Part shown: in pieces, positions 35,759-42,718 of the stretch | Position numbering within the stretch: the first letter of the stretch is position 1 | Layout: the number at the start of each line of letters is the position of its first letter | Source of the DNA: Desulfoplanes formicivorans | GTDB taxonomy: Bacteria > Desulfobacterota > Desulfovibrionia > Desulfovibrionales > Desulfomicrobiaceae | Direction of reading: 5' to 3' | Assembly (NCBI RefSeq): GCF_001748225.1 | Contig: NZ_BDFE01000015.1 | Coordinates: 248,001 to 312,000 of the forward strand | Length of the DNA: 64,000 bases | Program-made: the position numbers and the translations under genes | Notes under the pieces: generated by a model | The model's database searches: none | What the model was told of the DNA's origin: nothing | Seen by the model: the letters and a program-made list of their open reading frames with translations, nothing else

Positions 35759-35825
35759 GTCAGGTTTCCTGTTTCCAGCACCTATTGATATGTTTTCCTG
35801 AATCTGATGCAACAGGAAACCTGAC
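35759..35825. repeat. 15-bp inverted repeat with 37-base spacer
   Basis: Arms GTCAGGTTTCCTGTT (35759-35773) and AACAGGAAACCTGAC (35811-35825) are exact reverse complements. They lie upstream of both ogt (leftward) and the sensor kinase (rightward). No T-run follows, so a regulatory site or cruciform is more likely than a terminator. Confidence 0.6.
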
Positions 35826-35966: not shown

Positions 35967-37247
35967 ATGCAACACCCTTCACTTGCACAATTTTTCGACT
36001 GGGGCATGATCCTTTTGGTCATGCTCTTCCTGGTCTGCATCATCCATTTCACGCCGGGTATCAATCCATGGATCGCGGGAACGGCTTTCCTTCTGCTGGG
36101 CGGCTACCATCTCTACACCAATCACCAGCAAACATGGGACCTTTTTCGTTCACCTGCCATTGCCACGATCCATCTGGGTATATCTCTTGTGCTCTGCGCT
36201 TTCATGGTCTGGAGCACCACCACACCCCAGGAAGAAAGTGCCTTTTGGGCCATATTTCTGCTCCCCATTCTGACGGCGGCCATGCGCATGGAACTGGAAC
36301 CGACCCTGCTCGTTACCGTGGGCGCCACCATGCTCTATTTTCTCCTCATCCCCATGGATCAGTTTCCCACGGAAGAGCTCAGAGAAGATCTGCCGGAATT
36401 CATCACCCCGGCCCTGGTCTTTTTTCTGGTGGCGGTCCTGGTTCAATTTCTGGCCAGAACAATGCGCCACCAACTCCACAAACAGGTCGCCCTCAACCAA
36501 TCCCTGCGTGAAAGCCAGCAATCCCTGAGAAACTCTCTGCACCAGCTGGCCGAGGCCAAAGAACAGCTCCACCGTCAGGAACGCCTGGCCGCCCTTGGCG
36601 AAATGGCTGCAGGCGTGGCCCATGAAATCAGAAACCCTCTGGGCATTGTGGCCTCATCAGCGCAATTGCTGGAAGATAAGGTTGCAGCCAGTGATAGCGA
36701 GGCCGAGGAATTATTGCACGTCATTGGGGAAGAAACCCACCGACTCAACAACCTGCTCAATGATTTTCTGGCCTTTGGACGACCCACAATCCCGCAGTTT
36801 CAGTCCTGTCAGATGCACACATTTTTGCGCACCTGCCTGGACCGCTTCAGCAACCTGCCCCAGACCAAGGATATCCGACTCGCCCTGTACTGTCAGCCTG
36901 ACCTCCCGATGGTACGCATAGATCCCGATCTGATGGAACAAACGCTTTTGAACCTGATCCTCAACGCAGCAGAGGCCTCCTCACCGGGAGATACCATTGA
37001 AGTCACCTGCACGTACTCTGCAAACCAGCTCATCATTGGAATCCAGGATCAAGGCACGGGTATCCCCGAAGCAATCCGGGAAACCATTTTCACCCCCTTT
37101 TTCACCACAAAATCCAGGGGATCCGGGCTGGGACTGGCCAATGCCTTCAAGTACATCCAGGCCCACAACGGCAGGATTGATATCAAGGACACGTCCCCAG
37201 CAGGCACCTGTGTCCGCATCCTTTTGCCCACGGAGACTGCTCAATGA
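35967..37247 (+). CDS. Membrane sensor histidine kinase (NtrB/ZraS class)
   Basis: The 426-residue protein has about six hydrophobic segments in residues 8-165 forming a membrane sensor, then a short coiled coil (~170-205). The kinase core carries the H-box LGEMAAGVAHEIRNPLG, the N-box LILNAAEAS, and G-boxes DQGTGIP and GSGLGLAN. No periplasmic sensor domain is obvious. Its stop overlaps the start of the response regulator by four bases. The start lacks a clear ribosome site. Cue unknown. Confidence 0.88.
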   Translation: MQHPSLAQFFDWGMILLVMLFLVCIIHFTPGINPWIAGTAFLLLGGYHLYTNHQQTWDLFRSPAIATIHLGISLVLCAFMVWSTTTPQEESAFWAIFLLPILTAAMRMELEPTLLVTVGATMLYFLLIPMDQFPTEELREDLPEFITPALVFFLVAVLVQFLARTMRHQLHKQVALNQSLRESQQSLRNSLHQLAEAKEQLHRQERLAALGEMAAGVAHEIRNPLGIVASSAQLLEDKVAASDSEAEELLHVIGEETHRLNNLLNDFLAFGRPTIPQFQSCQMHTFLRTCLDRFSNLPQTKDIRLALYCQPDLPMVRIDPDLMEQTLLNLILNAAEASSPGDTIEVTCTYSANQLIIGIQDQGTGIPEAIRETIFTPFFTTKSRGSGLGLANAFKYIQAHNGRIDIKDTSPAGTCVRILLPTETAQ

Positions 37248-38620
37248 CACCAGCACATATTCTGGTTGTTGATGACGAAAAAAACTATTGCGTGGTGCTT
37301 GGCCAGCTGTTGCGTCGCGAAGGATACACGGTCAGCACGGCGGACAACGCATTTGCAGCCCTGGATATCCTTGCCAGGGAACCCATCTCCCTGGTGCTTT
37401 CCGATTTGAAAATGCCCCGCATGGACGGTCTGGCCCTGTTTCAGAAAGTCCGTGAAGACATGGGTGATATGCCCTTTATCATCATGACCGCCTTTGCCAC
37501 GGTACAAACGGCCCTGGAGTCCATTAAAAACGGTGTATACGATTACCTGCTCAAGCCTTTTGACAATGACAAGGTCCTGGTGACCATTAACCAGGCCCTC
37601 ACCCTGTATCGCAGTCAACTCCAGATCCAGGCGCTGCAGATGCAGGTGGAAAACAGGTACGATCAGGAAATCATCGGCCAGGGACCTGCCCATCAAAAAC
37701 TGATGAGGGAAATCGCCCTGGTAGCCAACGCCCCTTCGCCTGTTCTGATCACCGGAGAGACAGGGGTGGGCAAGGAACTGGTGGCTCGCAGCCTGCACAA
37801 GGCCAGCCCCAGGCATCACAACGCATGGGTGGCTGTCAATTGCGCTGCCCTGACCGAAACCCTGCTGGACAGCGAAATTTTCGGCCATGAGCGTGGAGCC
37901 TTTACCGGTGCTGCCCAACGCAAAAAAGGTCTGGCCGAGCTCGCTGACGGGGGAACCCTGTTTCTGGACGAAGTGGGAGAACTCCCCCTTGCCTTTCAAG
38001 CCAAACTGCTGCGCCTAGTGCAGGAAAAAAAATTTCGCCGGGTAGGGGGAACCGTAGAACTCTCCAGCAATATCAGAATACTGGCGGCCACCAACAGAGA
38101 TCTGGCAACCATGGTCCAGGAAAAAACCTTTCGTCAGGATCTGTTTTTCCGGCTCCGGGTGGTGGAACTGCGCGTTCCTCCCTTGCGGGAACGGGCAGAA
38201 GATATCCCGCTTTTGGCCCTGTTTTTTCTCAAACGCCTGGCCAAGGAACTTGATCGACCGGTGCAGAAGATTGCCCCGGAAGCCATGAGCTGCCTTGAAC
38301 GCTATACCTGGCCGGGCAATATCCGGGAACTGCGCAACGCCATTGAACGCGGTATCCTGTTCAGTTCCAAGACAATCCTTGAACGCGATGCCCTGCCCGA
38401 GGAAATCCGATATGCCGGAGAAAATCCTCCGGACCTTGCCTCACGCATGACCATGATCCCTCCCAACTTTTCCCTACCTGCACATCTTGAACGCATGGAA
38501 CAAGAGATCATCAGCCAGGCCCTGATCCAGTGCCATGGCATCCAGGCCCGGGCAGCCGCCTGCCTGGGCATCAGCCGAAGCAATCTGCAATACAAACTCG
38601 GCAAACTGCACCTGGAATAA
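37244..38620 (+). CDS. NtrC-family sigma-54-dependent response regulator
   Basis: The 458-residue protein has a receiver domain (1-120) with phosphoacceptor Asp54. A complete AAA+ domain has Walker A GETGVGKE, the GAFTGA sigma-54 contact loop and Walker [11 protein letters not shown] Fis-type DNA-binding helix-turn-helix ends the chain ([20 protein letters not shown]). It is coupled to the kinase by ATGA overlap. A near-consensus sigma-54 promoter with palindromic upstream sites lies 260 bases beyond its stop, in front of the LtaS-like genes. These are its probable targets. Confidence 0.92.
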
Positions 38621-38808: not shown

Positions 38809-38830
38809 TTTGTACAAAAATTTGTACAAA
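38809..38830. promoter_or_regulatory. Tandem TTTGTACAAA palindromes (probable activator sites)
   Basis: Two perfect 10-bp palindromes TTTGTACAAA at 38809-38818 and 38821-38830, centres 12 bases apart, lie about 75-100 bases upstream of the predicted start of the LtaS-like operon. A third copy occurs at 39841-39850 over the end of the first gene of that operon. Confidence 0.6.
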
Positions 38831-38854
38831 CCATGCCCTCAAAAAGAAATAACT

Positions 38855-38874
38855 ATTTGTTTTCAAAGACAAAT
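38855..38874. promoter_or_regulatory. Inverted repeat between the palindromes and the promoter
   Basis: ATTTGT (38855-38860) and ACAAAT (38869-38874) with an 8-base spacer lie just upstream of the -24 element. It could be a further regulator site or an IHF-like bend region. Confidence 0.35.
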
Positions 38875-38879
38875 AATTC

Positions 38880-38896
38880 TTGGCGCGCTCCTTGAT
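38880..38896 (+). promoter_or_regulatory. Sigma-54 promoter of the LtaS-like operon
   Basis: TTGGCGC-N5-CTTGAT has -24 TGGC, -12 TTGA (consensus TTGC), and ten bases between GG and GA. Predicted start near 38907, about 60 bases before the first gene. It follows directly on an NtrC-type regulator gene. Confidence 0.62.
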
Positions 38897-38968
38897 AGAT
38901 CCCGAAAAGGTCTCTTTGCTGCAGGGATTGGCAGCCAACCCTTGTCCCATGAAAAAACGCGTGGCCCC

Positions 38969-39862
38969 ATGTCACTACCCGATCGATTCAGACCTCTTTA
39001 TGGCCTGTCAGCCATCTACCTCACCATGTCGCTGCTTCTTCGTCTTGCCTTGTGGAAACTCTCAGGTTCTTCAGGAGGCATGAGCGGGGCAGACCTTGTT
39101 TTCATTCTGGGGGCAGGTGTTCTCAATGATTGCGCGGCCCTTGCCATTCTTTTCATGCCATTGGTCCTGTATCTGACCTTCCTGCCCGACACCCTGGCCC
39201 GCACAAGGGGACAGCGCATCGGCTTTGCCCTGTTTGTCTTTTGCAGCCTTTACTGCCTGCTTTTTCTCGTGGAAGTGGAAGGCCTCTTTTTTCATACATA
39301 CAACGCCCGCTTCAATCACGTGGCCGTCAGGTATCTGCTTGCTCCCGGTGACCTTCTGACCAGCGCCTGGAAATCCTATCCCCTCATATGGATCATATTC
39401 ACGGATATGCTGCTGGCCGCCTTAATTTTTGTTAAAATCTGGCCCAGCCTGGACCAGGCTTTTGAACACCCGGCCGGCTACACCTGTCGCCTTGCCGTTC
39501 TTGCCGTATATGGTCTTTTTCTGGTGCCGGTCCTGTGGACCTTCACGACCAGCTACACCATTTCCGACAACAATATGGTCAATGAACTTGCCCGCAACGA
39601 CATTTCCAGCCTGCTAAGAGCGTTTCACTCCAGACACCAGGACAACACCCCCAAGGACCGGTCCGCCCACCAGGCCCCTCAGAAAACAGGGACACGCCAA
39701 CCCGACATGTTGCAGCAGTCAGCACCACCCACCGGCATGAAACTCTCTCCCCACAGCCAAAACCATCTGGTGCATGACTGCACACCCAAACGGGAAGAAG
39801 ACACGCGACCGATCATGGAAAAAATGGCTCTACTTCTTCTTTTGTACAAAGGATGCTTATGA
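38969..39862 (+). CDS. LtaS-like membrane domain protein lacking the catalytic domain
   Basis: The 297-residue protein matches the membrane half of the next gene: about five helices in residues 12-195, including VEVEGLFFHTYNARFNHVAVRYL, which parallels VAEFLFWDEFGVRFNFIAVDYL downstream. It ends with ISDNNMVNELARNDISSLLRAF, equivalent to the linker before the sulfatase domain. The sulfatase domain is absent; a Gln/Pro-rich tail of ~70 residues replaces it. The stop overlaps the next start (ATGA), so the frame is probably maintained by selection. The start choice is uncertain; the ribosome site is weak. It may be a partner subunit or remnant of tandem duplication. Confidence 0.65.
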   Translation: MSLPDRFRPLYGLSAIYLTMSLLLRLALWKLSGSSGGMSGADLVFILGAGVLNDCAALAILFMPLVLYLTFLPDTLARTRGQRIGFALFVFCSLYCLLFLVEVEGLFFHTYNARFNHVAVRYLLAPGDLLTSAWKSYPLIWIIFTDMLLAALIFVKIWPSLDQAFEHPAGYTCRLAVLAVYGLFLVPVLWTFTTSYTISDNNMVNELARNDISSLLRAFHSRHQDNTPKDRSAHQAPQKTGTRQPDMLQQSAPPTGMKLSPHSQNHLVHDCTPKREEDTRPIMEKMALLLLLYKGCL

Positions 39863-41814
39863 AATCGTGTGATAATTGCCTTGGCCGATACCGACTGTTT
39901 GTTTTTTTCGTGCTGGCCTGCCTTGCCACGTTCTTCGTGGTTCGACTGGTTTTCACGGTCCTTGTTTTTCCTGAAATACCCCATACACCAGGATCGCTGG
40001 TACGTATTTTTGCCACAGGTTATGCGTACGATCTGGTGGCATCCCTTTACATGTCCCTTCCCCTGCTGATTTATCTGACCATCCTCCCCGGACAATGGTT
40101 CAATACCCGAATAAACCGCGGCATCCTGCTGGGCCTTTTTTTCGTGATTTTTTCCCTCTTGCTGTTTGATGGGGTGGCGGAATTTCTGTTCTGGGACGAA
40201 TTCGGCGTCCGGTTCAATTTCATTGCCGTGGACTATCTGGTGTATACCAACGAGGTTATTGGTAATATTTGGGAATCCTATCCGGTTCCAGCCCTGTTTA
40301 CTGGCATCTTTGCCGTAGCGGCCGTGCTTGTGACCGTATTTCGTCACCACATCGGCATAATGGAACAAACGACTTTGCCTCTAATCAAACGGACCATGAT
40401 CAGCCTGCTGCTGGGTATGGTCATGTTCCTGAATTATCAGTTGATTGATACCTCATGGGCATCCTTGTCCAACAACATGCATGAAAACGAACTGGCAAAA
40501 AACGGCGTGTACCAGCTTTTTTCAGCCTTCATCAATAACCAGCTTGATTATGAGACCCTGTATGCCACCATGCCCGTTGCCAAGGGATTTGCCGCACTGC
40601 ACAAGGCCATGGGGCGAAAACCCCAGGACTTCCAGGACGGAATGATAACCCGCCGCATTGTACATCAGGGACAGGAACACAAACCCAACGTGGTTGTAAT
40701 CATGGTTGAAAGCCTCAGTGCCAAGTATCTGGGAACCTTTGGCAATACCAGGAGGCTGACCCCGTTTCTGGATGAATTGGCCAAGGACAGTCTCTTGTTT
40801 ACCCGGCTGTACGCCACCGGGACCCGAACCGTCCGGGGCATGGAGGCTGTCACCCTGTCTGTCCCGCCCACACCGGGGCGTTCCATTGTCAAACGTCCCG
40901 ACTGCGAAAACATGTTTTCTGCCGGATTTCTGTTCAAAGAACGGGGCTACAAAACCATGTTCCTGTATGGAGGATACGGCTATTTTGATAACATGAATGC
41001 CTTTTTCAGCAGCAACGGATTTGACGTGGTGGACAGAAGTGATCTGGCTGATGAAGAAATCACCTTTGCCAATATCTGGGGGGTATGTGACGAGGATATA
41101 TTGCGGCGTTCTCTTCGGGAGTTTGATGCGTCCTACAAGCATGACCAACCGTTTTTCGGATTTGTCATGACCACATCCAACCACCGTCCCTTTACCTACC
41201 CAGACGGAAAAATAGATATTCCTTCCCATGAAGGCCGCAGCGGCGGGGTCAAATATACGGATTACGCCCTGCAGCAATTTTTTAAGGAAGCCAGAACAAA
41301 ACCCTGGTTCGACAACACCATTTTTGTGGTGGTGGCAGACCATTGTGCCCACAGCGCGGGTAAATCTGAACTGCCGGTACATCGCTACCATATACCGTTA
41401 TTCATCTACGCACCCAAGCTGATCACTCCCGGGCACGTGGACACTCTGGCCAGTCAGATAGATCTCATGCCCACCCTGTTGGGAAGGCTCAACTGGAGCT
41501 ATACGAGCAAATTCTTTGGTCGCGATATCCTGTCCAAGGAATTTGTCCCCCGTGCGTTCATCGGCAATTACCAAAAACTGGGGCTCATTGAAAACCAAAC
41601 ACTCACCATCCTGGAACCCCAGAAAAAAATAACCAGTTATCATATCAAGACAGAGACCATGCAAGATAGTTTTGTTATTCCAGCTCCCCTGACATCACGA
41701 CAAAAAGAGACCACTATCGGATACTACCAGAGTGCCAGCTATCTGTACAAACATGGACTCAACAGATGGAACAACCGTAACCCCATTGCCATGACCGAAC
41801 ACAGCACCAAATAA
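39859..41814 (+). CDS. LtaS/MdoB-family membrane phosphotransferase (sulfatase fold)
   Basis: The 651-residue protein has five N-terminal membrane helices (~12-195) and a periplasmic sulfatase-fold domain (~265-600). The domain begins NVVVIMVESLSAKYLG, has a TGTRTVRGMEA segment with the probable nucleophile Thr, and carries VVVADHCAH and HRYHIPLFIYAP metal-binding motifs. Relatives transfer phosphoglycerol or phosphoethanolamine to glycolipids, glucans or lipid A. In this Gram-negative setting an envelope modification role is likely. ATG 39859 has AAGG seven bases upstream. Confidence 0.85.
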   Translation: MKSCDNCLGRYRLFVFFVLACLATFFVVRLVFTVLVFPEIPHTPGSLVRIFATGYAYDLVASLYMSLPLLIYLTILPGQWFNTRINRGILLGLFFVIFSLLLFDGVAEFLFWDEFGVRFNFIAVDYLVYTNEVIGNIWESYPVPALFTGIFAVAAVLVTVFRHHIGIMEQTTLPLIKRTMISLLLGMVMFLNYQLIDTSWASLSNNMHENELAKNGVYQLFSAFINNQLDYETLYATMPVAKGFAALHKAMGRKPQDFQDGMITRRIVHQGQEHKPNVVVIMVESLSAKYLGTFGNTRRLTPFLDELAKDSLLFTRLYATGTRTVRGMEAVTLSVPPTPGRSIVKRPDCENMFSAGFLFKERGYKTMFLYGGYGYFDNMNAFFSSNGFDVVDRSDLADEEITFANIWGVCDEDILRRSLREFDASYKHDQPFFGFVMTTSNHRPFTYPDGKIDIPSHEGRSGGVKYTDYALQQFFKEARTKPWFDNTIFVVVADHCAHSAGKSELPVHRYHIPLFIYAPKLITPGHVDTLASQIDLMPTLLGRLNWSYTSKFFGRDILSKEFVPRAFIGNYQKLGLIENQTLTILEPQKKITSYHIKTETMQDSFVIPAPLTSRQKETTIGYYQSASYLYKHGLNRWNNRNPIAMTEHSTK

Positions 41815-41941
41815 CTCATCAAAAAACGACACATATTACATCATCAAAAATATGCACGACAATTCATAATAATCATTTTTTCAATCAACATATGAAATAG
41901 AACAATATGTGCAAACACAATAGCTACGATACATTATACCT

Positions 41942-42718
41942 ATGAGTACAAAAAGTATATACGCAAATATATTGGGATCAGTCATTCTCCTGATCATGGC
42001 AATGATCATTTTCGAATACACGAATATTGATATTCGTGTTCAGGATCATTTTTTCAATTTTGATACAGGAACATGGATGGTCGGCAATCATAATGAATTA
42101 TTACGCAGCATCTTTTATAATGGATCAAAAAAATTCATTGTTGCCATGGGTATTTTAAGCATTCTTTGTTTGATATTTTCATCTCAAAAAAAATATCTTC
42201 GATCAAAAAGAAAAGAATTGCTGATTTTTATTCTTGCATTGATCATCGTGCCCTTTCTGATAGCCCGCATAAAACAGGTTACCAACATGTATTGCCCCGA
42301 ACAGATCCAACGCTACGACGGTGTTTATCCCTATGTAAAATTATTTGAACACTATCCAGAAGGGTTTCACACGAAGCACAGGGGTAAATGTTATCCAGCA
42401 GGCCACGCTTCAGGCGGTTTTGCCATGATGGCCCTGTTTTTCGTATGCAACAGACGTTCATACAAACTGGCCGGCTTGGCCACTGGTCTGGTCATGGGTT
42501 GGATCATGGGGCTGTATCAAATGCTCAAAGGTGCCCACTACCTCAGCCATACCGTGGTGACCATGCTTCTTGCCTGGATCATCATCTGTCTGATCCATGA
42601 GGGGGTACACATGCTTGCCCGCCAAAAAACCTTTGCATGGCTTGCTGACTCTCCCACAAACCGCCCCTTGAGAACGACCCCGGCCAGCAGGTTCCAAACC
42701 CAGAACCAAGTACATTGA
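41942..42718 (+). CDS. PAP2-family membrane phosphatase, variant active site, AT-rich 5' half
   Basis: The 258-residue protein has about six membrane helices and PAP2 motifs: KQVTNMYCP (Cys for the usual Arg of KX6RP), YPAGHAS (PSGH motif), and GAHYLSH (canonical HxxxD reads HxxxH). This GAH-SH variant occurs in a PAP2 subgroup often annotated only by family. The first ~300 bases and the 130 bases upstream are far richer in A+T than neighbours, suggesting acquisition. With the LtaS-like genes upstream it may act on lipid phosphates or undecaprenyl pyrophosphate. Confidence 0.78.
   Translation: MSTKSIYANILGSVILLIMAMIIFEYTNIDIRVQDHFFNFDTGTWMVGNHNELLRSIFYNGSKKFIVAMGILSILCLIFSSQKKYLRSKRKELLIFILALIIVPFLIARIKQVTNMYCPEQIQRYDGVYPYVKLFEHYPEGFHTKHRGKCYPAGHASGGFAMMALFFVCNRRSYKLAGLATGLVMGWIMGLYQMLKGAHYLSHTVVTMLLAWIIICLIHEGVHMLARQKTFAWLADSPTNRPLRTTPASRFQTQNQVH

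Follow-up and report, generated by a model that had tools for sequence, protein, structure and literature searches.

The window, that is, the whole stretch of DNA analysed, covers 64 kb (C15:248001-312000) of a Desulfoplanes genome of 3.0 Mb. The genes of interest are all on the forward strand. A sensor histidine kinase gene (35967..37247) was assigned from the HisKA and HATPase_c domains of its product (Pfam), from hydropathy and from orthologues of the sensor region. It overlaps the start of a gene for an NtrC-type response regulator (37244..38620), which has a receiver domain, a sigma-54 AAA+ domain with the GAFTGA motif, and a Fis-type HTH. These are followed by gene A (38969..39862), gene B (39853..41814) and a gene for a PAP2-superfamily phosphatase (41942..42718). 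By hydropathy, the N-terminal region of the kinase is embedded in the membrane and has no large extracytoplasmic loop. Sigma-54 itself is encoded in the genome (PF04552, 206 bits), together with some two dozen other sigma-54 activators, counted as matches spanning the AAA+ domain. Between the kinase gene and a divergent methyltransferase gene there is a perfect inverted repeat with 15-bp arms (35759-35773 and 35811-35825) and a loop of 37 bp.

The earlier note on this DNA described the genes after the regulator as LtaS-like. This holds fully for B, which is a full LtaS/OpgB-superfamily protein with a membrane module and a sulfatase-fold domain (PF00884), but for A only in part, in that it is an LtaS-type membrane module without the catalytic sulfatase domain. 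Gene A encodes five hydrophobic segments and a juxtamembrane linker, in which the conserved R-F-N and N-E positions are kept. It has no match in Pfam or NCBIfam, and a fold search with its model (mean pLDDT 64) gave no significant match. For gene B, the best structural match is the Vibrio protein VP1736, and solved LtaS chains are also matched. Its scores fall well below the cut-offs of the curated models, with 72 of 970 bits for LtaS (NF053595), and 80 and 57 bits for phosphoglycerol transferase I/OpgB (NF009027 and NF003000, cut-offs 572 and 574 bits).

The PAP2 gene product matches the PAP2 superfamily and scores below the cut-off for the PAP2 lipid A phosphatase (NF028538, 161 of 275 bits). 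The operon probably ends with this gene. A gap of 127 bp separates it from B; neither a terminator-like nor a sigma-70-like site was detected there, and a separate sigma-70-type promoter for the PAP2 gene was rejected. Around this junction (41750-42250) the G+C content drops to 32%, compared to about 50% on either side, and the PAP2 gene was perhaps acquired separately.

The intergenic region between regulator and gene A

Two palindromes, TTTGTACAAA, had been noted directly after the regulator gene, and both are present, at 38809-38818 and 38821-38830. They are better read as one dyad, because relatives retain YGTAY-N8-RTACR and not both palindromes; the suggestion of two independent 10-bp palindromes was therefore rejected. 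The predicted regulator dyad, TGTACAAAAATTTGTACA (38811..38828, no strand assigned), is 18 bp long, has the form TGTAC-N8-GTACA, and holds the inner parts of both palindromes. The whole genome contains four copies of TTTGTACAAA, against an expectation of about 1.8 from the dinucleotides of the window, while the tandem TTTGTACAAANNTTTGTACAAA, allowing up to three mismatches, occurs once in this genome and nowhere in that of its sister described below. Besides the pair, there is one copy within the end of a coding sequence on another contig and one at 39841-39850, within the 3' end of gene A and shortly before B begins, so that three of the four fall within 1.1 kb. The 39841 copy was considered as a further regulator site and rejected: it lies inside A and is not kept in the sister genome, and is either chance or of unknown meaning.

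The center of the dyad lies 61.5 bp upstream of a predicted -24/-12 (sigma-54) element, TGGCGCGCTCCTTGAT (38881..38896, forward strand). This was identified by conservation and by a custom score with a maximum of 17, built on the D. vulgaris consensus tGGcacg/tTGCt (PMC4641369). The element scores 14, a value reached by only 0.019% of window positions, and in both Desulfoplanes genomes no other site between regulator and gene A scores better. The correct spacing claimed for it earlier is borne out, and its -12 box reads TTGA rather than TTGC. A strict pair of dyad and -24/-12 element occurs once in the 64-kb window, at this site. The expected transcript start would be near 38907. A leader hairpin was rejected (z-score -0.07).

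The conserved GG of the -24 box is present. The -12 box has GA in the window and in its sister, compared to GC in the 19 other scored sites, where it reads TTGC or CTGC. TGGCACGN4TTGA occurs nowhere else in the two Desulfoplanes genomes, and the other exact matches to TGGCN4TCCTTGATA lie inside coding sequence, so that TTGA as a genus-wide variant of the -12 box finds no support. The TTGA box is the weakest point of the promoter reading for Desulfoplanes itself.

The further inverted repeat mentioned in the earlier note exists. Its arms (38848-38863 and 38866-38881) are 81% complementary, and it is not another copy of the dyad. The consensus for IHF is WATCARN4TTR, and part of the repeat (38850..38862, reverse strand) fits this with one mismatch, making it a tentative IHF-like site. 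Such a match, with at most one mismatch, is found in 14 of 21 spacers, compared to a mean of 2.0 and a maximum of 7 in shuffled spacers that preserve base content only. One study (PMC3897727) reportedly deals with IHF at D. vulgaris promoters of the sigma-54 type.

Among named relatives, the closest that was found is a MAG of Desulfoplanes, represented by contig L005; the locus is likewise present in G077, a genome placed in the genus of the window. Genes, dyad and promoter are all kept. The gene order in L005 is kinase, regulator, A, B, with identities of 64, 79, 43 and 72%, respectively, and the reading frames of A and B are open in both genomes. With the promoter as the fixed point of the two intergenic regions, no gap is needed to align the dyad and the TGGC/TCCTTGATA blocks. 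This offset gives the best ungapped 100-bp match of all (53/100; the next offset that is not a neighbor gives 45), and identity over the 122 bp is 47% (57 identities).

Recurrence of the arrangement after orthologous regulators

A search of 395 genomes of the phylum with the kinase sensor region gave seven matches. Apart from that of the window itself, two are strong (L170 and L171), and both come from one other family. In L170 the order is kinase, regulator, LtaS; its regulator shares 58% identity with that of the window, and the gene that comes next encodes a full-length LtaS-type protein whose N-terminal half is 43% identical to A. In L171 the regulator and LtaS are separated by genes for an OmpR-type two-component system, PAP2 and a larger membrane protein. 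A remnant of the regulator C-terminus is found directly upstream of LtaS, suggesting that regulator and LtaS were adjacent ancestrally. Read by eye, the window, L005, L170 and L171 share a dyad, YGTNC-N8-RTACR, centered 61.5 bp upstream of the T in TGGC. The -12 box of L170 and L171 is the canonical TTGC.

A profile built from four sensor regions gave matches in 44 of the 136 genomes in the order to which L170 and L171 belong. The 24 matches with E < 1e-25, L170 and L171 included, were followed and weaker ones dropped; with the window and L005 this gave 26 loci, all from the same phylum. Two of them (L203 and L213) end less than 124 bp past the regulator stop codon, leaving 24 readable loci. 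In the window's own order the sensor region was found in three of 247 genomes, namely the two Desulfoplanes genomes and one weak match. In a tree with the paralogues of the two Desulfoplanes genomes, 25 of the 26 regulators (one is too short) group together with support of 95/92, and SRSNLQ is present in the HTH of every regulator read to its end. Their deeper placement is unsure, because several paralogues have long branches.

A site was called where a dyad matching at least 8 of 10 positions and a -24/-12 element scoring at least 12 of 17 lay 59-63 bp apart within the 700 bp scanned after the regulator gene. Such a site is found in 21 of 24 readable loci, and in 18 of the 20 that remain when the four loci used to derive the motif are removed. 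The reverse strand gave 0/24, and in 100 rounds of dinucleotide shuffling the count averaged 0.34 and never exceeded 2. Other bins of dyad-promoter spacing reach at most 4. With stricter thresholds (13 for the promoter and 9 for the dyad), 19 of 24 loci are retained, with none in both controls. Of the misses, L209 lacks the site, L220 has a dyad-promoter distance of 85.5 bp, and in L171 the site lies beyond the scanned 700 bp. The dyad consensus over the loci is TGTACAAAWWTTTGTACA, and the inner positions, which were left unscored, are conserved as well. Perfect dyads occur 14 times in the 26 whole loci, 13 of them at the place after the regulator.

Autoregulation was considered and rejected: none of the 26 loci, of which L210, L223 and L005 lack the upstream DNA, has a dyad with promoter ahead of the kinase gene. 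Single dyads without promoter lie upstream of the kinase gene in L171 and L207.

The genes downstream of the regulator were compared in the 23 loci with more than 2.5 kb of sequence there. An LtaS-type membrane module is present in 19, a sulfatase domain in 17 and PAP2 in 12. The LtaS gene of L171 is cut by the end of the locus, and L217 shows the membrane half alone. LtaS is lacking in L209, L211, L212 and L222. In the last three the dyad and promoter are present and precede other genes: in L211 a receiver-domain gene, YceI, a type III polyketide synthase, MMPL and a UbiE-type methyltransferase, and in L222 a type III polyketide synthase, while L212, compared by its ORFs alone, is similar in their size and order. 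These genes may form an operon for phenolic lipids that is controlled in the same way. In L209 the site, LtaS and PAP2 are all missing, and a gene of the diacylglycerol kinase family is retained; in L205 such a gene directly follows LtaS. A diacylglycerol kinase would fit with recycling of diacylglycerol from a phosphatidylglycerol donor.

LtaS-type membrane halves lacking the sulfatase domain recur. Gene A is found in both Desulfoplanes genomes, L214 and L223 have short membrane-half proteins beside a full-length enzyme, and L217 has one with PAP2 only. In L210 the membrane and sulfatase parts are separate ORFs.

Proposed control of the operon

The dyad and the -24/-12 element thus lie in the same order and at near-constant spacing after orthologous regulators in many genomes. 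This recurrence, together with that of the LtaS-type module, makes it very probable that the adjacent two-component system controls the envelope operon through the dyad and a sigma-54 promoter. The central claim of the earlier note, that the NtrC-type system probably drives the adjacent operon, is thereby supported at the level of sequence, by the 21 of 24 loci, the grouping of the regulators (95/92) and the presence of sigma-54 in the genome. In the mechanism we propose, the membrane-embedded kinase would sense the state of the envelope and phosphorylate the regulator. The regulator would then bind the dyad, about 87 bp upstream of the transcript start, probably helped by a bend at the IHF-like site, and activate sigma-54 polymerase at the -24/-12 element. 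A (the membrane module), B (an LtaS/OpgB-like transferase) and probably the PAP2 phosphatase would be transcribed together, and their products would modify envelope glycans or lipids.

An unlikely alternative is that the circuit is decaying in Desulfoplanes. Gene A would then have lost the sulfatase domain that it lacks, and the -12 box, with a TTGA confined to this genus, would have lost its C; the promoter would be weak or dead, and A and B would be read through from the kinase-regulator transcript. However, the dyad, TGGC and TCCTTGATA are retained with unchanged spacing in both Desulfoplanes genomes, within surroundings of 122 bp that are only 47% identical, and both genomes keep A and B open. 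It is very improbable that the dyad is bound by another protein, either a repressor or one of the some two dozen other sigma-54 activators of the genome, with the adjacent regulator acting elsewhere, given that in many genomes the dyad comes after an orthologue of this regulator, and that within the 26 loci it is hardly found anywhere else. A sigma-70 promoter, which the earlier note had named as the finding that would speak against its claim, is scarcely credible: short palindromes are common operator sites, and could here be chance or a repressor site, and the -12 box is non-canonical, but no sigma-70-type site was found in the intergenic region of either Desulfoplanes genome and the distance from dyad to -24/-12 element is near-fixed across loci.

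Control by the adjacent two-component system would give this envelope-remodelling circuit a defined predicted operator and promoter at a near-fixed distance, which makes the regulator, its regulon and eventually the cue directly testable. The site is constant while the genes after it vary, being either LtaS/PAP2 or a type III polyketide synthase together with an MMPL-type transporter. This suggests that what the kinase reads is the state of the membrane or envelope. The LtaS-type membrane modules without catalytic domain, found in several operons, call for explanation. More tentatively, and with rather less than even confidence, we suggest that this is an undescribed, widely conserved sigma-54 envelope-lipid regulon of the phylum that has a dyad of its own, and that the catalytic domain has been lost repeatedly from its LtaS-type enzymes, leaving a membrane-only protein to act as partner of a full-length enzyme or of PAP2.

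Comparison with known systems

No description of this circuit was found in the open-licence literature, and its wiring is standard. The closest curated models are those of AtoS/AtoC and ZraS/ZraR, which have the same domain plan and different targets; the kinase reaches 230 bits against a cut-off of 646 for AtoS, and the regulator 468 against 714 for AtoC (NF008469). An AtoC-like site was rejected, as the AtoC motifs given in PMC3118216 differ from the dyad. Compared with LtaS and the OpgB/MdoB phosphoglycerol transferases, B has the same plan of membrane module and sulfatase fold, with scores that miss the cut-offs by far, whereas A lacks the catalytic domain.

A further likeness is offered by OmpR-type two-component systems next to LtaS-type genes, in that a receiver-domain gene lies near a B-type gene. 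It does so within 1.5 kb in at least 29 of 97 loci collected with B or A (80 from one search and 17 from another), many of which are cut short. Among these 97, a sigma-54-type regulator is that close to a B-type gene in L005 only. Two-component genes of other classes are thus frequent neighbors of LtaS-type genes, and the sigma-54 pairing is specific to a lineage.

In D. vulgaris (PMC4641369), most sigma-54 promoters are less than 100 bp from the nearest activator site, and several activator motifs are TGT/ACA half-sites 9, 11 or 12 bp apart, a pattern that the dyad resembles. A precedent is DVU2934, a sigma-54 response regulator of that organism dedicated to one envelope-lipid gene: its single target is given as the lipid A gene lpxC (DVU2917; PMC3333781, PMC4641369), compared to LtaS-type and PAP2 genes here. 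By this analogy, the circuit described here would be of the same kind as the DVU2934 regulon, with other genes under its control.
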